Assembly: GCA_014055495.1 (NCBI GenBank)
Contig: WIAG01000021.1
Coordinates: forward strand, 1-59,006
DNA length: 59,006 nucleotides
Source: Nitrospira sp. CR1.2
Lineage (GTDB): Bacteria; Nitrospirota; Nitrospiria; Nitrospirales; Nitrospiraceae
Direction of reading: 5' to 3'
Positions 47,883 to 58,823 of the stretch are shown here, in pieces. The notes under the pieces are model-generated. The model ran no database searches. It had not been told where the DNA came from and was given only the letters and a program-made list of their open reading frames with translations. The translations under genes and the position numbers were made by a program. Each line of letters opens with the position of its first letter. Positions within the stretch are counted from its first letter, which is position 1.

Positions 47883-49046
47883 TCAGCAGCGGGTGAGGAG
47901 CTTCTCGTTTCGATTCCATTGCGAGACGGTGCCGCTTGTGTCGGTCAGCTCCAGTTTATCCTGGGACAGGACACGGACCGACAGCGGAGGAGTTTTACCC
48001 TGGGCCACGACGAGACGGAAGCGGTCCTGTTCCCGTTCGAAGCGGCCGGTCTGCAAGGTCGCTTTGTAAAACTCGGACACGTTGGCTGCGGTGATCTTCC
48101 AGACAAATTCTTCCTGGCGATCGACGAATTTCGACGATCCTTCCCAGGTTCCTACCAGAGACGGTTCGACCGGCGGGAGCCGTTTGACGGCCAGCTTGTG
48201 TGGAACGGCTGCAAACGAGTTCCAGAGCAGAGGATCGAATTTGCTCGGCGCCTGATTCTTGGGGAGTTTATCCCACGTCACGCTCAAAATGCCGGTGGTG
48301 GAAAAGCGATCGGCGTTCGCCATCTGATAGGTTCCATGCAGAATCTCCGGATACGACTCGGCTTCCCACCGACCCCGGTCTGCGGTGACTATGCCCGGCA
48401 TGACGATGGCGGTCGTCAGTGTCCAGCCATCGGGTTCGGTCAGGGTGAGGTGGCCCTTGCCGTACATCAGGCCCACGGGCATACATCCGTACCAATCACC
48501 GGCCCATTGCGAAGGGGGTCCCGTGGTTCCCGGTTCCGCGGCCGCGGAGGGCGTGCGCGTCGCGCCGCCGAGCCTTGTTGCTGCAACTTTGGCAAGATTC
48601 GTGACCGCCGCTTGCGGATTCGCCTGTTTCGGCGAAGTCAGTGAGAGCGTGACGAGCGCATCCGCCTTTAAGAACGTCAGCTGAATGTCGCCGATCGGTG
48701 AGCGGAGCGTAAAGGCGCCGTCGCCCACACCCGGGACCGGCTGATGACCGGCTTTCGCACGTTGATCGTGAAAGAGGCTCGTCTTGTCTCCGACAGGTCC
48801 GGAGTCCAGCTCGACGACCACGGTCTCCTGCGGATTTCGTTTGGCTTGGTAGAGACATTGCTGGTCATTTTGACGTGGACCTTGGGTGACGGGCGTGCCG
48901 ATGGCGAGTTCCACGTCGGCTTCGGTGATGATGAGGCAGGCATTGAGGTTGTTCGAGAGCGCCTCATTCGAGGGTGAACATCCGAAAACCGTCGCTCCCA
49001 GAAAAAGGCCGCAACAGGTCCGGCATATCGTGGACGAAAGATTCAT
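47883..49046 (-). CDS. Putative lipoprotein, DUF3558-like N-terminal domain
   Basis: A 387-residue protein. The N-terminus ends in VFGCSPSN, a lipobox-like site. ACLIITEADVELAIGTPVTQ and QCLYQAKRNPQETVVVELDS form a DUF3558-like domain (about residues 35-165) found in actinobacterial lipoproteins. The second half (WAGDWYGCMPVGLMYGKGHL, then VGTWEGSSKFVDRQEEFVWK) looks like lipocalin-type repeats. Both halves suggest ligand binding at the envelope. Function unknown. Confidence 0.65.
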   Translation of the reverse strand: MNLSSTICRTCCGLFLGATVFGCSPSNEALSNNLNACLIITEADVELAIGTPVTQGPRQNDQQCLYQAKRNPQETVVVELDSGPVGDKTSLFHDQRAKAGHQPVPGVGDGAFTLRSPIGDIQLTFLKADALVTLSLTSPKQANPQAAVTNLAKVAATRLGGATRTPSAAAEPGTTGPPSQWAGDWYGCMPVGLMYGKGHLTLTEPDGWTLTTAIVMPGIVTADRGRWEAESYPEILHGTYQMANADRFSTTGILSVTWDKLPKNQAPSKFDPLLWNSFAAVPHKLAVKRLPPVEPSLVGTWEGSSKFVDRQEEFVWKITAANVSEFYKATLQTGRFEREQDRFRLVVAQGKTPPLSVRVLSQDKLELTDTSGTVSQWNRNEKLLTRC

Positions 49047-49150: not shown

Positions 49151-49570
49151 TCACGACGGGATAAATTTCAAGGACAGGCCGTTGATGCAATACCGTAGTC
49201 CCGTGGGTCTGGGGCCGTCATTGAACACGTGGCCTTGATGCCCGCCGCAGCGCGCGCAGTGGACCTCGGTGCGAGTCATGAAGAATTTGCTGTCGGTTCG
49301 GGTCTCAACCACCTTCGGGTCGATCGGCTGCCAGAAACTGGGCCAGCCGGTGCCGCTGTCGAATTTATGTTCCGACGAATAGGCCGGGAGATCGCAGCCG
49401 GCGCAATGGTAAATGCCGGCCTGGTGATTCTCGTGCAAGGGGCTGGTAAACGCGCGCTCAGTGTCTTCATGGCGGAGAACTTGATAGGCGGCAGGGGACA
49501 GCAGTTTTTTCCACTCGTCGTCCGTCTTCGTGACTTTCACGATCGGTCCGATCTCTATGTGTGCTGACAT
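49151..49570 (-). CDS. msrB: Methionine sulfoxide reductase B
   Basis: A 139-residue protein. Two zinc CxxC pairs (HCAGCDLP and HCARCGGHQ), SGTGWPSFWQPID around the substrate site, and the catalytic Cys in GLRYCINGLSL. It reduces methionine-R-sulfoxide in proteins. A resolving Cys is not obvious at the usual early position. AGGAG six bases before ATG 49570 decides the start over the adjacent ATG at 49573. It lies just downstream of lon on the same strand, separated by a hairpin. Confidence 0.95.
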   Translation of the reverse strand: MSAHIEIGPIVKVTKTDDEWKKLLSPAAYQVLRHEDTERAFTSPLHENHQAGIYHCAGCDLPAYSSEHKFDSGTGWPSFWQPIDPKVVETRTDSKFFMTRTEVHCARCGGHQGHVFNDGPRPTGLRYCINGLSLKFIPS

Positions 49571-49722
49571 CATGATCTCCTGGGCATGGGTGTGGAGTAT
49601 GGGCATGACTGATCCCGGTACCTGCCACCTTACAGATGTCTTTACGGAAGGGCAAGGCGAACGGATGGGTCGCGGGCGCGGGAGGTTTCAAGTCCGTCAG
49701 CGTATCAGGGAGGGGAAACGAG

Positions 49723-49752: not shown

Positions 49753-52149
49753 TTACGAGGCGCTTGAGGTTGTCACTGGTTCAGGTCGTTCCGATGCGGA
49801 AGGGGAATCCTGATTGAATGCCGCCGGCAGTACCTCTTCGATCCGTTCGACCGGGAGAATCGTGAGTTCATCCCTGACTTCCTGCGGCACCTCCTTCAGG
49901 TCCTTCTCGTTGGCCTTGGGGAGGATGATCCGCTTGATACCGGCCCGATGGGCCGCCAGGACCTTCTCCTTGATGCCGCCGACCGGCAGCACCAGCCCCG
50001 TCAAGCTGATCTCGCCGGTCATGGCCGTATCGCTTCGCACCGGCTTGCCGACATAGGCCGACGCCAGCGCCGTGGCCATGGTGATTCCGGCCGACGGCCC
50101 ATCTTTCGGGATGGCTCCGGACGGGACGTGGATATGCACGCCGTTCCGCTTGAAGCGCGAGATGTCCAGGCCCATGCTCTCGGCATGCGACCAGAGATAA
50201 CTACGCGCGGCGCGAGCCGACTCCTGCATGACGTCCCCCAATTGTCCCGTCAGGGTCAGTTCGTGGCTGCCGGGCAACAGGGTCGTTTCGATATAGAGCA
50301 CGTCTCCGCCTGTCGGTGTCCAGGCCAGTCCAGTCGCGACGCCTGCCGGCAGGTTTTTCCGTGCCTCTTCCGGCTGAAACCGTTCCTGGCCGAGCCATTC
50401 GTCCAGAAGCGTTTCAGTGATGTCGACCGGTGCAGCCGGCGCATCCGTCGGCCGATCGGCAAAGGCCACGGCAACCTTGCGGGTAATGCGGCCCAGCATT
50501 TGCTCCAACTGCCGGACTCCCGATTCCCTCGTATACCGGCTGATGATGTGGTCGAGCACCGCATCCGGTAACGCGACGTCTTCGGCTCGCAGCCCGGCTT
50601 CCTTCAGTCGTCTCGGCCAGAGATAGCGGAGCGCGATTTCGCGTTTCTCCCGCTCGCTGTAGCCGTTGACCCGGATGATCTCCATCCGGTCCAACAGAGG
50701 CTGGGTGAGTGTCTCCAGCGTGTTGGCTGTGGTGATGAAAAACACCTTCGACAAGTCAAACGGCAGATCGAGATAGTGGTCGCGGAACGTGTGGTTCTGC
50801 GCAGGGTCCAAAATCTCCAGCAACGCCGACGCAGGGTCACCGCGGAAATCCCGTCCCAGCTTGTCGACTTCGTCCAGCATAATGACCGGGTTATTGACTC
50901 CCGCTCGCCGGACCGCCTGGATGATACGGCCGGGCAGCGCGCCGACGTACGTGCGGCGATGCCCTCGCAGTTCCCCTTCGTCATGCAATCCGCCGAGACT
51001 GAAGCGCTCGAAAGTCCGCCCCATCGACTTGGCGATCGATTGCCCTAGGCTGGTCTTTCCCACGCCGGGAGGGCCGACCAGGCAGAGAATGGGGGCCTTG
51101 GCGGAGGGGTTCAACTTCAAGACCGCCAGATGCTCCACAATGCGCTCTTTGACTTCCTTGATGCCGTAGTGATCCTCATTCAGGACCTGTCGCACGTGTG
51201 CCAGGTCAAGCCCTTCCTCGGACGACTTGTTCCACGGCAGTTCCAGCACCAGTTCGAGATAACTCCGGATCACCTGATGTTCGGGTGACGCGCTGGGCGT
51301 CTTCGCCAGTCGGGTCAATTCTCGATCGGTTTCCTTGCGAACGTGCTCCGGAAGATCGGCCTCCTGAAGTTTTTTCCTCAGGGCTGCCACCTCGTCTTCT
51401 TCTCCGGTCACTTCGCCCAACTCCTGCTGGATCGTCTTCAGTTGCTCGCGCAGCAAGTACTCCCGCTGGGTTTTGCCCAGCTTCTCCTTGGCCTCGCTGG
51501 CGATTTTGTCGCGTAACTGGAGGATTTGAACTTCGCGTGAAAGCGCCGCATACAGCCCCCGCAGCAAGTCCGCCCGGGTGGAGGCTTCCAGCAATTGTTG
51601 CTCGCCGTCGAGCGTGAGATTCAGCAAAGAGGCGATCCGGTACGCCAGGGTCACCGGGTCCTCCTCGGTTCCCAGTGCGGCCACGGCTTCATGCACACCG
51701 GGAGTCTGAATCAATTTCGGCAGTTCCGTAATGATGTCCAGAATCGCCCGATGCAAGGCCTCGACCTCCGTGCTCCGTTCTGCCGGCGGAGGAAGTTGTT
51801 TCACCCGTGCTTGGAGGTAGGGATCCACCTGGTCGAGTTTCAGCAAAACGAACCGCTCCAGGCCTTGGATCAGGATGTTGTAGTGCCCTTCGGGCGCTCT
51901 GGCCGTTTGTTTGATGACGGCTTTGGTTCCGATCGAGTAGAGATCTTCCAATGCCGGGTGATCGGTTTGTGCGTCCCGTTGGGCCACGACGAGCAACGTC
52001 TTGTCTTCCGTCTTGAGCGCTGCCTCCACGGCAGCAATCGAACGGTCGCGCCCCACCGTCAGCGGCATCATCGTACCGGGAAACAGCACGGTCCGCTTCA
52101 AGGGGAGTATGGGAAGATGCGTGAGTATGGGCGTGTTGAGATCAGTCAT
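49753..52149 (-). CDS. lon: ATP-dependent protease Lon
   Basis: A 798-residue LonA protein. N-terminal LON substrate domain (LPILPLKRTVLFPGTMMPLT), a coiled coil (about 200-270), Walker A GPPGVGKTSLGQSIA and Walker B VIMLDEVDKLG, then the Ser-Lys protease: catalytic Ser in KDGPSAGITMATALAS and Lys in GGIKEKVLAAHRAG. It is a soluble hexamer that degrades damaged and regulatory proteins. Length is standard. A short acidic, Ser-rich C-terminal tail follows the protease domain. Confidence 0.97.
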   Translation of the reverse strand: MTDLNTPILTHLPILPLKRTVLFPGTMMPLTVGRDRSIAAVEAALKTEDKTLLVVAQRDAQTDHPALEDLYSIGTKAVIKQTARAPEGHYNILIQGLERFVLLKLDQVDPYLQARVKQLPPPAERSTEVEALHRAILDIITELPKLIQTPGVHEAVAALGTEEDPVTLAYRIASLLNLTLDGEQQLLEASTRADLLRGLYAALSREVQILQLRDKIASEAKEKLGKTQREYLLREQLKTIQQELGEVTGEEDEVAALRKKLQEADLPEHVRKETDRELTRLAKTPSASPEHQVIRSYLELVLELPWNKSSEEGLDLAHVRQVLNEDHYGIKEVKERIVEHLAVLKLNPSAKAPILCLVGPPGVGKTSLGQSIAKSMGRTFERFSLGGLHDEGELRGHRRTYVGALPGRIIQAVRRAGVNNPVIMLDEVDKLGRDFRGDPASALLEILDPAQNHTFRDHYLDLPFDLSKVFFITTANTLETLTQPLLDRMEIIRVNGYSEREKREIALRYLWPRRLKEAGLRAEDVALPDAVLDHIISRYTRESGVRQLEQMLGRITRKVAVAFADRPTDAPAAPVDITETLLDEWLGQERFQPEEARKNLPAGVATGLAWTPTGGDVLYIETTLLPGSHELTLTGQLGDVMQESARAARSYLWSHAESMGLDISRFKRNGVHIHVPSGAIPKDGPSAGITMATALASAYVGKPVRSDTAMTGEISLTGLVLPVGGIKEKVLAAHRAGIKRIILPKANEKDLKEVPQEVRDELTILPVERIEEVLPAAFNQDSPSASERPEPVTTSSAS

Positions 52150-52404: not shown

Positions 52405-54516
52405 CTAGCGATCGATGAAGAGGCTCCCGGCGTTCTCCAGGTACGTTCGCCGATTGAGCCGCTCCGGACGCGCCTCGGCCTTCGCGGAAGGCACGGAGGA
52501 ATAGTCGTCGCGCCCTTCGAGGTCCAAAAACGCGCCGACACTCGTATCGGCGCCAAGCCCGAGCCCTCGGCTGACCGCATATTGATCCGCTCCGCCTTCC
52601 TCGATGAACAAGCCCCATCCTCCCAGGTCGGCCATGCCTAATCCCGTCGAGGCCGGCAGGTCGTAGAAGTCGCTGTCCGAGCCGCCATCGACGGCCAGCG
52701 CCACGCTGCCGTCCCAGGCGGTGCCGCCGTTGTAGAACGGACCTTTTGAACCATAGCGGTCTTTGCCCTGGTAGTCGATGGTCAGGCCCACTCCGAAATG
52801 GGCCGCACTGCCGTGGCCATACCGCGCCGCCTGATGCTCGTCGTCTCCCGCCAGATCGAGCGTAACGCCGACCCCGAAGAAATAGCCGTGTCCTTGGGAA
52901 AAGTTTGCGCTACGGTACCGATCTTGACCGGCCAGATCGATCAGGAGTCCCCAGCCGCCGGCCAGACTCTGTGCCCGTTGGGCCGGTTGTTTGCTCAAGA
53001 TGCGAAGCCCCGACCCCGTTCCAAGCCCGAAACAATCGTATTGAAACGAAGGATCGTGCGGGCGCGTGTGCGGAGCCTCGCTCTCGTTGTACGCGCTGGG
53101 GTACCGTCCGCCGCACTCGTACGTATCGGTTCCCGCCACATCGATCAACGCTCCGACGCCCAGCGGGCCTCCAAACCCGAGCGCGTAGCCATGACTCGTA
53201 TACCGGTCGTCGCCCGCACGGTCCACCAGAAGGCCGAATCCCCCGAAGGCCGCACCCTGAGTAAAGCGGCTACCGTCATAGACATCATGGCCGCCTCCGT
53301 CGTACAGGATGCCAAGCCCCGCAAGGCCGACTCCGCCGGAGCCGGGCGTCAAGCGATAGGTATCGTCGCCGCTGTGGTCGATCACGATGCCGATGCCCAC
53401 ACGTCCGGTGGCCAGCCCCAGCGCAGCCGGTTGATAGGTGTCGTTGCCGCTCAGGTCGATCACAAGACTGTTGCCGAGATCGCTATTCGGGCTGGCGCCG
53501 ATGAGTCCACGGTAGCTGTCGTTGCCTCCCAGGTCGATGATCAGCGCCGCACCCCTGTCGAGGTTGTACGTATTGGGGCCGTATCCACCGATGACGAACA
53601 ATCCATAGGACGTCTGTTGCACCAGCAGGAGATCCCCGGTGATGCCGGGGACACTCTGCGCGACCGGTTTCCGGTGCTGCAAGGCAATCTCCAGCTGTTG
53701 GAGAAACTTTCTGTTGCCGAGCCGGGCCAATCGTTGGGCGGCGGCGATCAGTGAGCCGTAATCGACCTGCTGCGTGAGCAAGGTGGCGAAGGTGACTGCC
53801 GCCTCCGCCTCCGCAAGGCGGGCCGGTGGCGTGATTTGCGGGGTGAACTGCTCCACGAGGGGTCGAGCCTGAGAAAACAGAAACTCCCGGTCCTGGGGAG
53901 ACAGATGGCGTAAGGCCTGTTCACGGTCCTGATACGCCTGTTGGAGCTCGTCCGTCAGAAACGTGAGCAGTTCCTCGCTGACCAGGGTGACGGGAAACGT
54001 CAGCGGCGCGAAGGAGGCACCGGTGCGATCCATCCCGCCTTCCAGAATGTCGATGACGGCGGGCAGCCCTTCGACACCGGATTCGGCAGCGGTCGACGCG
54101 AACAGCCCGGCCTGTTCGAGTGCGGCAAGACCCTCCCAGGGATCCGCCAGCGCGCGCAGGACAAGGTCGCGTTTAAATTTCGCCGGCTTGTTGGATTGAT
54201 CGGCCAGGGTTTTTCGCAGTGCGGGGAGGGCGACGTTGAGATTGTCCCGCAGTTCCGGTTCGACAAGATCTTTCAGTCGCGCCACCATCGCCAGCTGCTG
54301 CCGGTCGATCTGCCGGTCCGGCGCCGGCGTCACGGCGAACAGGGTAGAGAGTCGCGCACAGCCGCTCAAGAGGACCGAGAGCGCCAGGACCATCAGGAGT
54401 CCGAGCCGTCGATGCGAAGGTGTGGCCCGGCTTGGTTTCGAGCTGGCTGTCCGAATCGAATCGGACTGACGAGCAGCGGCCGGCCGGTCGCCGGATGGTA
54501 GAGCGGCGCCGATCAC
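52405..54516 (-). CDS. Lipoprotein with twelve D-x-x-G-x-D-x-Y repeats
   Basis: A 703-residue protein. A signal ends in LLSGCARL, a lipobox. Residues about 60-300 are helical (VEPELRDNLNVALPALRKTL). The C-terminal half has twelve tandem units of about 28-35 residues with the core L-I-D-x-x-G-x-D-x-Y (for example IIDLGGNDSYRG, VIDHSGDDTYRL, LIDLAGQDRYRS). Glycine-rich spacers follow the GxGxG style of calcium-binding or beta-solenoid repeats. The first 41 residues before the signal are unusual, so the true start may be later. It begins 30 bases after otsA. Confidence 0.75.
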   Translation of the reverse strand: MIGAALPSGDRPAAARQSDSIRTASSKPSRATPSHRRLGLLMVLALSVLLSGCARLSTLFAVTPAPDRQIDRQQLAMVARLKDLVEPELRDNLNVALPALRKTLADQSNKPAKFKRDLVLRALADPWEGLAALEQAGLFASTAAESGVEGLPAVIDILEGGMDRTGASFAPLTFPVTLVSEELLTFLTDELQQAYQDREQALRHLSPQDREFLFSQARPLVEQFTPQITPPARLAEAEAAVTFATLLTQQVDYGSLIAAAQRLARLGNRKFLQQLEIALQHRKPVAQSVPGITGDLLLVQQTSYGLFVIGGYGPNTYNLDRGAALIIDLGGNDSYRGLIGASPNSDLGNSLVIDLSGNDTYQPAALGLATGRVGIGIVIDHSGDDTYRLTPGSGGVGLAGLGILYDGGGHDVYDGSRFTQGAAFGGFGLLVDRAGDDRYTSHGYALGFGGPLGVGALIDVAGTDTYECGGRYPSAYNESEAPHTRPHDPSFQYDCFGLGTGSGLRILSKQPAQRAQSLAGGWGLLIDLAGQDRYRSANFSQGHGYFFGVGVTLDLAGDDEHQAARYGHGSAAHFGVGLTIDYQGKDRYGSKGPFYNGGTAWDGSVALAVDGGSDSDFYDLPASTGLGMADLGGWGLFIEEGGADQYAVSRGLGLGADTSVGAFLDLEGRDDYSSVPSAKAEARPERLNRRTYLENAGSLFIDR

Positions 54517-54546: not shown

Positions 54547-56073
54547 TTACTCAAGGGAGGGACTATCAAGAGGAGGGAGGAGTCCCGCATCGCGCAGACA
54601 GTCGTCGGCCCAAGTGCGAATATCGTGTGCCGCCAGATAGGTCCGCATGCGATGCATGCGTTCCCGTCGCTCCTGCCGCGGCATTTCCAGTGCCTGGCGA
54701 ATCGAGTCGGCCACACCCTCCGGGTCGTAGGGGTTGATGACCAAGGCGTCGGTCAGTTCTTCTGCTGCGCCGGCCATGTGGCTCACCAGTAACACGCCCT
54801 TCTCATCCACCTGGCTGGCGACATATTCCTTCGCCACCAGGTTCATGCCGTCGTAGACGGAACTGACGAGCGCCAGGTCCGCCATCCGGTAGTAGGCCGC
54901 CAGGGTGTCCATGCCGATCCGCCCTTCGCGGAACTCGATCGGCCGCCAGCGCGAGGCGAGCGAACTGCCGGGGTTGGAGACACTGCTGTAGCGCATGTTG
55001 ATGTCGTTCACCGTCTCGCGGATCAGTTCACGATAACGTCGATAGGCTTCCACGTCTCCTCGGGTCGGCACCGCGATTTGAATAAAGGTGAACCGTCCCC
55101 GGTAGTGCGGGAACTGGTGAAAGAAGGCATCGATGGCCCACAAGCGTTTGAGCAATCCCTTTGTATAGTCGAGACGGTCGACGCCGAGCCCGATGCGCAC
55201 ATCCGGTTGAAAGACGTGAAGGTTGCGCAGGGCATCCATTGAACGGGTGACCTGAGGGGATTGGGCTCGCTCCGCCCACGTTTCAAAGCCGATGCTGATC
55301 GGTCGGGACACGGCCTTGGTCGCATGGCCCTTGTAGTCAAGACGGTGGTCGTCCGCGTGAAGGTCTGCACCCAGGAACTCTTTCGCACATTCGACAAAGC
55401 AATGGAGAAAATTTTGCGTCTGGAACATCAGCAGATCGCAGGTAAGCAGGGATTCCAACACTTCGCGTCGCTCCGGCAAAATGCGAAAGGCATCCGGGCC
55501 CGGCCAGGGGATATGCCAGAACATTGCCACCGGCTGTTTCGGCAGCGATGCTTTCACCATACCCGGGAGCAGCGCCAGGTGAAAATCGTGCACCCAGACG
55601 AACCCGGGTTTCGTCTGGAGTTCGCCCAACACCACTTCGGCGAAGCGGGCATTCATGGCCTGGTAGGCGTGCCAATAGGCTTTGCGGTAGTCGACGCGAT
55701 CCAAGGTCAAGTGGCACAGGGGCCACAGCACCTGGTTTGCATAACCGTGATACCCGCCTTTGATCTCGCCCGGTTCCAGCCAGACGCGGCGCAGACGGTA
55801 GGTCGGCGCGTCCGGCGGGACTTCAACGGTCATATCCTGACCCACCACGTCGCGGTCGGCTTTGCCGCTGCCCCAGGCAATCCAGGTCCCGCCGAGGCGG
55901 CGCATCATGGGGTCGAGCGCGGAAACCAGCCCTCCGGAAGTCCGTTCCCAGATGAGATGGTTTTTGATCAGACGGTGTTCGTAGGGCTCACGATTCGAGA
56001 CGAGGATGAGGCGTGCAAGGGAGAGGTCGCTTTCGCGCTGTGCCGCTTCGAGAGGAGCGTGAGACGTGTTCAT
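54547..56073 (-). CDS. otsA: Trehalose-6-phosphate synthase
   Basis: A 508-residue GT20 glycosyltransferase. ARLILVSNREPYEH and TSGGLVSALDPMMRRLGGTW form the N-terminal loop, VWVHDFHLALLPGMVK and FWHIPWPGPDAFRILP the acceptor side, and RIGLGVDRLDYTKGLLKRLW plus YDGMNLVAKEYVASQ the nucleotide-sugar site. It makes trehalose-6-phosphate from UDP-glucose and glucose-6-phosphate for osmotic and desiccation stress. A glucosylglycerol-phosphate synthase cannot be excluded. No phosphatase gene is adjacent. GAGGGTGG precedes the ATG. Confidence 0.92.
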   Translation of the reverse strand: MNTSHAPLEAAQRESDLSLARLILVSNREPYEHRLIKNHLIWERTSGGLVSALDPMMRRLGGTWIAWGSGKADRDVVGQDMTVEVPPDAPTYRLRRVWLEPGEIKGGYHGYANQVLWPLCHLTLDRVDYRKAYWHAYQAMNARFAEVVLGELQTKPGFVWVHDFHLALLPGMVKASLPKQPVAMFWHIPWPGPDAFRILPERREVLESLLTCDLLMFQTQNFLHCFVECAKEFLGADLHADDHRLDYKGHATKAVSRPISIGFETWAERAQSPQVTRSMDALRNLHVFQPDVRIGLGVDRLDYTKGLLKRLWAIDAFFHQFPHYRGRFTFIQIAVPTRGDVEAYRRYRELIRETVNDINMRYSSVSNPGSSLASRWRPIEFREGRIGMDTLAAYYRMADLALVSSVYDGMNLVAKEYVASQVDEKGVLLVSHMAGAAEELTDALVINPYDPEGVADSIRQALEMPRQERRERMHRMRTYLAAHDIRTWADDCLRDAGLLPPLDSPSLE

Positions 56074-58016: not shown

Positions 58017-58322
58017 TTAATTGCTGCTGGGCATGATGAGCCCTAATTCCTCCGCCGGCGGATGCACGAAGGTGAATCCTTTGTCCTTCTGAAAGTCCAC
58101 GGTCATTCCGTTTGTGCGGTGCACGCTCGCCCGATCCAGCGCCACGGTGAGGCCTTCAATGTGCTGCACCTCATCCTCTTCCTGCGCTGCAGGTTCCAGG
58201 GTGATCGAGAGGGACAGGCGTTGCGCATCCACGTCGCGTAACGCAATCCGTACGACCGGATCGTCCGGATGTTCCTCGATCAACTTGCGCAATCGTTCGA
58301 TGGCGGTCCAGGTGAGATTCAT
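58017..58322 (-). CDS. Cysteine-less IscA/HesB-like protein
   Basis: A 101-residue protein with the A-type iron-sulfur carrier layout: LTWTAIERLRKLIEEHPDDP, VRIALRDVDAQRLSLSITLE, then a hydrophobic strand, GMTVDFQKDKGFTFVHPPAE at the usual D-y-x-x-x-x-GF-x-F-x-NP position, and a C-terminus where C-x-C would be. None of the three cluster-binding Cys of IscA is present. It may have become a structural or regulatory protein. It lies five bases downstream of the toxin gene and is probably in its operon. Confidence 0.7.
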   Translation of the reverse strand: MNLTWTAIERLRKLIEEHPDDPVVRIALRDVDAQRLSLSITLEPAAQEEDEVQHIEGLTVALDRASVHRTNGMTVDFQKDKGFTFVHPPAEELGLIMPSSN

Positions 58323-58327
58323 CGTGG

Positions 58328-58603
58328 TCAGGCTGGTCTGGCCCGCTGCGTCGACGCTGCGTGCTGGATGTGGTGAATGTCTACAAGTTGTTCGGTCCGG
58401 TCGATCGAATAGAAAATCCGCCAGTCGCCCACCGCATATTTATGGATCCCGGGCAGGTCGGCAGCGACCGGCTCATGGCGCAGATTATCCACGTTGGAAG
58501 CCAGCCATTTCGTCTTGTCGAACAGACGTTGAGCCATGGCAGGATCCGCCACCCGCAGGTCGGTGATCACATCGGGCCGAAAGGCGAGGCGGTACCAGGG
58601 CAT
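58328..58603 (-). CDS. RelE/ParE-type toxin
   Basis: A 91-residue protein starting MPWYRLAFRPDVITDLRVAD, with LPGIHKYAVGDWRIFYSIDR and LVDIHHIQHA. The L-x-G-x-x-KY-x-V-G-D-w-R-I-x-Y order is the RelE/ParE toxin fold. RelE members cut mRNA on the ribosome and ParE members poison gyrase; which applies is not clear. ATG 58603 is one base past the upstream antitoxin stop. A longer start at 58642 would overlap that gene by 38 bases. Confidence 0.85.
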   Translation of the reverse strand: MPWYRLAFRPDVITDLRVADPAMAQRLFDKTKWLASNVDNLRHEPVAADLPGIHKYAVGDWRIFYSIDRTEQLVDIHHIQHAASTQRARPA

Positions 58604-58604
58604 C

Positions 58605-58823
58605 TCACCACCGCAGGCCGAGCTGGTCGGCCACTTTGTCACCGGTGATGCGTTCCGTCGAAGCCAGGGATTGCTTCAGGCGATCACGAACCGACTCGCC
58701 GAGGGGTGCGCCGAGATCCGGGTCACCCAGCAAGGTGCGCAGGCGGTCATCGACCAGGCCCTGCACCAAGTCCTTCAATTGTGCCAATGTGAGCTGGGAT
58801 AGGTTTGTCGACTGTTCGGCCAT
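58605..58823 (-). CDS. Antitoxin partner of the RelE/ParE-type toxin
   Basis: A 72-residue helical protein (MAEQSTNLSQLTLAQLKDLV, then RTLLGDPDLGAPLGESVRDR). The length, charge and place directly before the toxin with a one-base gap (TGAGATG) identify it as the antitoxin. No DNA-binding domain is clearly visible at the N-terminus, so operon control may need the toxin or another protein. The final third (LKQSLASTERITGDKVADQL) probably wraps the toxin. Confidence 0.72.
   Translation of the reverse strand: MAEQSTNLSQLTLAQLKDLVQGLVDDRLRTLLGDPDLGAPLGESVRDRLKQSLASTERITGDKVADQLGLRW

Follow-up and report, generated by a model that had tools for sequence, protein, structure and literature searches.

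The 59,006-nucleotide stretch of DNA analysed here (the window), from the nitrite-oxidizing bacterium Nitrospira sp. CR1.2, encodes a 703-residue lipoprotein predicted to combine a helical domain with a β-solenoid of 12 coils, and four polar residues assigned to coils 7–10 of this solenoid, or to the insertion preceding them, are nearly invariant in its homologues. The reading that we favor, with moderate confidence, is that the protein is a calcium-stiffened solenoid lipoprotein of the outer membrane with one specific site on coils 7–10.

Gene and Export Signal

The lipoprotein gene occupies 52405–54516 on the minus strand and is present as a single copy in the genome. Its open reading frame starts with a GTG codon at 54516, the sole plausible start, which has a GGAG about 8 nt on its 5′ side, and the stop codon ends at 52405. 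Residues 1–52 (54361–54516, minus strand) form a signal peptide with an unusually long n-region. It leads into the lipobox L50-S51-G52-C53 (54358–54369, minus strand), with lipidation predicted at Cys53. The signal peptide and a lipobox ending in Cys mark the protein as a bacterial lipoprotein, in agreement with the lipid anchor proposed in the first-pass annotation of this DNA. The residue at position +2 following Cys53 is Ala, which by the Lol rule of E. coli predicts an outer membrane location.

Repeat Array and Predicted Fold

AlphaFold2 modeling of the mature protein, with 23 sequences as input, gave a structure with a pLDDT of 89.8 and a pTM of 0.91 (protein residue numbers are model numbers plus 51). 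The model consists of about ten helices followed by a β-solenoid, the arrangement that the first-pass annotation had suggested and for which it had asked for a structure prediction. The helical domain covers residues ∼72–281 (53674–54303, minus strand), and the 12 coils of the solenoid cover residues ∼286–703 (52408–53661, minus strand), with FIDR-COOH as the last residues. Modeled alone, the helical domain had a pLDDT of 80.4, and structure searches produced no clear fold match for it (best Z 3.6).

The solenoid contains 11 exact [DE]xxGxDx[YHF] motifs at a spacing of 26–27 amino acids, and a degenerate coil 10, with the sequence GGSDSDFY, brings the total to twelve coils. Two wider gaps between motifs, of 68 and 58, arise from an insertion after coil 6 and from the degenerate coil 10. 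The insertion, which alignments show to be conserved, separates coils 6 and 7 (residues ∼467–518; 52963–53118, minus strand) and contains the motif GxGxGxR505. Shuffling the solenoid 20,000 times while preserving its composition yielded a mean of 0.1 motifs and a maximum of 3, as against 11 in the real sequence. The number of coils and their register are unchanged across phyla despite sequence identities of 26–40%. Of the twelve L-I-D-x-x-G-x-D-x-Y units originally proposed, the number twelve therefore stands as a number of coils, but the fixed L-I-D does not, the residues before the Asp being merely hydrophobic.

The C-terminal sequence (52408–52425, minus strand) is SLFIDR-COOH. A hydrophobic residue followed by Asp and then Arg, Lys, or Gln is found three or fewer residues from the C terminus in 56 of the 99 homologues, and it possibly caps the last coil.

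Structural Relatives and the Question of Calcium

A Foldseek search returned no significant match and placed PDB entry 3p4g at an E-value of 1.7. The match to 3p4g rests on a second aligner, VIA-align, used to rescore the Foldseek list, which ranked this entry at the top with a Z-score of 18.2 over 274 of 301 residues, an rmsd of 3.2, and 18% identity. The runners-up were generic β-helices with Z-scores of at most 11.8. A viral structure library contained no match with an E-value below 0.001.

Entry 3p4g is region IV of MpAFP, also called MpIBP, from Marinomonas primoryensis, a Ca2+-bound solenoid built from xGTGNDxuxuGGxuxGxux repeats (PMC3492233) in which the Ca2+ ions run along one edge only (PMC6891781). 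Both this domain and the Nitrospira lipoprotein are β-solenoids of 12–13 coils, the latter by prediction, and each coil has a single acidic turn (GTGND in the former, DxxGxD in the latter). The repeat length differs, however, being 19–21 amino acids in MpAFP region IV and 26–27 in the Nitrospira lipoprotein. MpAFP region IV carries ice-binding rows of Thr and Asn and belongs to a 1.5-MDa adhesin for which type I secretion is presumed (PMC3492233), whereas the Nitrospira lipoprotein has its own lipobox, a helical domain, and a site composed of His, Asp, Tyr, and Arg. The Thr/Asn array that MpAFP presents at turn positions 3 and 5 is absent, position 3 being Ala, Gly, Ser, or Glu. Among 1015 motifs from the family, Thr is not one of the six commonest residues at the ice-binding position.

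At its Gly, Asp, and hydrophobic positions, the DxxGxDxY motif also agrees with the calcium-binding RTX turn GGxGxDxU (PF00353; PMC6891781, PMC3492233). RTX proteins differ from the Nitrospira lipoprotein in having a GGxGxDxUx nonapeptide repeat, two rows of calcium ions, and type I secretion (PMC6891781). Moreover, the +1 position of the turn, where RTX proteins require Gly (PMC6891781), is often Leu, and so the geometry at the metal would not be identical. Two observations nevertheless lend indirect support to the proposal that the Asp-rich turns hold calcium: the closest match in structure is MpAFP region IV with its bound Ca2+, and the motif agrees with the RTX turn. Surface binding by the solenoid, offered as the other possible role of these turns, is plausible.

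The generic β-helix matches included a GH28 enzyme (1ia5), a GH91 enzyme (9j4i), and the fucoidan lyase FdlA (7xz8), with VIA-align Z-scores of 9.5–11.2. Like the lipoprotein, parallel β-helix enzymes acting on carbohydrates have a row of polar residues conserved on successive coils. Unlike them, it matches no sequence family, and its conserved residues match no known catalytic set.

An Apparently Unnamed Family in Several Phyla

The lipoprotein matched no family in Pfam, NCBIfam, PHROGs, or PADLOC even at an E-value of 10, and phmmer, run with the protein against the PDB, found no sequence relative. The first-pass view of the repeats as something out of the ordinary is in keeping with this outcome, which places them in no well-described family of these collections. 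Profiles of known β-helix lyase or hydrolase families in Pfam and NCBIfam gave no match. PF00353 did not match any of 23 members at E-values up to 10, nor any of the further homologues scanned. Searching the PDB with a profile of the family produced no match to the solenoid, and the weak matches to the helical part resembled generic helical bundles. No relatives were found on plasmids, phages, or viral contigs, and no literature on the family was found among open-access papers.

The gene is nonetheless widespread: none of the 29 genomes of the genus lacks it, and it occurs in 37 of 61 relatives. In profile searches, 55 of the 295 genomes of the source phylum, Nitrospirota, carried it, as did 124 of 132 genomes of Zixibacteria and 101 of 246 genomes of Planctomycetota, where it often occurs as paralogues. 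In the phylum of a metagenome-assembled genome labeled 'Proteobacteria', two of 349 genomes gave a match, one of them weak. The family thus appears to be large, spread over several phyla, and unnamed. In a quick FastTree phylogeny, the Nitrospirales proteins cluster with five Planctomycetota proteins (support 1.0), and six Nitrospirota proteins of another class lie on a separate, PDZ-bearing branch; such a tree is compatible with possible transfer between phyla. One homologue (G159:C44:15712-17307) is split into several pieces that lie in different reading frames, contains a TAG codon, and is likely a pseudogene or an assembly error.

Relatives of the lipoprotein carry additional modules. A PDZ domain is present in the Nitrospirota relatives of the other class (loci L079–L084) and in several from planctomycetes, and HEAT repeats are fused to other homologues. 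At 16 of the 22 Zixibacteria-type loci fetched (L126, L131, and L135–L154), the next gene downstream encodes a HEAT-repeat protein, and upstream of these solenoid genes there are two contexts, with TatC at some loci and a type IV pilin-like gene at others. Taken together, the PDZ and HEAT modules suggest that members of the family have protein partners. Directly upstream at two Nitrospirota loci is a gene for a VanZ-like membrane protein (7576–8418 in L081 and 7975–8799 in L082), which overlaps or touches the start of the PDZ-solenoid gene.

A Near-invariant Site on Coils 7–10

Weighted conservation was calculated from 99 homologues, with an effective number of 44. Beyond the Gly, Asp, and Tyr residues of the repeat, the strongest polar conservation was at R505, Y545, H573, and D602. 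R505 (model residue 454; 53002–53004, minus strand) lies within the insertion before coil 7 and is 98% conserved. Y545 (model residue 494; 52882–52884, minus strand) is 97% conserved and is located on coil 8 at offset −9. H573 (model residue 522; 52798–52800, minus strand) on coil 9 and D602 (model residue 551; 52711–52713, minus strand) on coil 10 are both at offset −8, and each is 99% conserved. The entropy is 0.09 bits at H573 and D602, compared with 1.9–3.8 bits at offset −8 in the other ten coils, and is 0.25 bits at Y545.

H573 and D602 each precede the repeat Asp of their coil by 8 residues and are therefore expected to stack at a distance of about one coil, and the register argues that all four residues would be clustered in space. 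From this pattern of conservation, we infer a ligand-binding or catalytic site, although these near-invariant residues may instead be structural. No gene neighbor indicates a substrate.

Gene Neighborhood

The gene upstream of the lipoprotein gene encodes an OtsA-like trehalose-phosphate synthase of family GT20 (54547–56073, minus strand; Pfam Glyco_transf_20, E = 7e-120), and the gap between the two genes is exactly 30 bases, as first noted. The gene for Lon protease lies downstream (49753–52149, minus strand) at a distance of 255 bp. Throughout the genus the gene order is THUMP methyltransferase–otsA–lipoprotein–Lon–MsrB. At the loci examined in other genera of the Nitrospiraceae, the order is often THUMP methyltransferase–lipoprotein–Lon with no intervening otsA, and elsewhere the neighbors differ again. 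The lipoprotein–Lon adjacency is kept in several other genera, more widely than that with otsA, and the neighbors are different in other phyla. The earlier proposal of a link to otsA thus holds as an adjacency fixed in the genus but fails at the loci examined in other genera, where otsA is not adjacent, and so the link is recent or lineage-specific.

The downstream genes for MsrB (SelR; 49151–49606, minus strand) and Lon make up, with otsA, a same-strand run with a stress flavor that is kept in the genus. Also conserved in the genus, downstream of MsrB, is a gene for an apparent 387-residue lipoprotein (TVFGCSPS) with no Pfam match (47883–49046, minus strand). Elsewhere in the window are a gene for a ParE-like toxin (58328–58642, minus strand; PF05016, E = 1e-6) and an adjoining short open reading frame (58017–58322) with a marginal Fe-S_biosyn match.

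Discussion

In the reading that we favor, Sec export and lipidation of Cys53 would anchor the protein in the outer membrane, and extracytoplasmic calcium would let the acidic DxxGxD turns stack as they do in RTX and MpAFP domains, producing a row of ions that stiffens the solenoid. The helical domain, aided in relatives by PDZ or HEAT modules, would hold partners, and the row of His, Asp, Tyr, and Arg would bind, and possibly cut, a polymer of the envelope or the extracellular space, for instance a glycan. To what was computed, namely the family, the lipobox, the predicted fold, the motif, and the conserved site, this reading adds calcium, the side of the membrane, the ligand, and the chemistry by inference. 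A more far-reaching version, which we put forward tentatively, is that the family comprises calcium-stiffened β-solenoid enzymes of the envelope in several phyla, with a helical domain and a fixed set of 12 coils, often with PDZ or HEAT modules, and with an R-Y-H-D site on consecutive coils acting on an envelope or extracellular polymer.

An alternative is a plain rod on the outer membrane, stiffened by calcium and purely structural or adhesive. In its favor, the closest structural match is an adhesin domain, and the associated PDZ and HEAT modules are of kinds that bind proteins; in such a rod, the His, Asp, Tyr, and Arg residues would brace a corner of the solenoid rather than form a catalytic site. 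However, adhesive repeats usually expand and shrink, whereas here the number of coils is constant, and conservation is concentrated at two of twelve equivalent positions. It is mainly because these two positions are nearly invariant and the others variable that we prefer a binding or catalytic site and regard the plain rod as a serious but lesser possibility. Membership of the RTX (hemolysin-type calcium-binding) family is improbable. The likeness of the motif, and of the structure to a non-canonical RTX domain, MpAFP region IV (PMC3492233), would fit it, but PF00353 matches neither the window protein nor any homologue scanned, the repeat is 26–27 residues long rather than 9 or 18–19, and an N-terminal Sec lipoprotein signal (LSGC) takes the place of a C-terminal type I signal. 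Shared ancestry with the RTX repeats is possible.

Two further proposals start from the gene neighborhood. That the lipoprotein serves in ice binding or desiccation, in connection with trehalose synthesis through otsA, would agree with the position of otsA 30 bp upstream, kept in the genus, and with a best-matching fold that binds ice. We consider this very improbable, as the Thr row required for ice binding is missing from the 1015 motifs and otsA is not adjacent at the examined loci of other genera. A role in envelope stress or protein quality control is compatible with the site-bearing, calcium-stiffened lipoprotein that we favor, and would make sense of the Lon and MsrB neighbors, of the conservation of the five-gene order in the genus and of lipoprotein–Lon in several others, and of the relatives bearing PDZ or HEAT modules. 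It is unlikely all the same, since 255 bp separate the gene from that for Lon, which is a housekeeping protease, and the neighbors are not the same in other phyla.

Although it occurs in every searched genome of the genus, in nearly all of those of Zixibacteria, and in about two fifths of those of Planctomycetota, the family is nameless in the profile libraries searched. It resembles a long-repeat, Sec-exported counterpart to the calcium solenoids of RTX type, and point mutation of the near-invariant site would allow its function to be tested directly.
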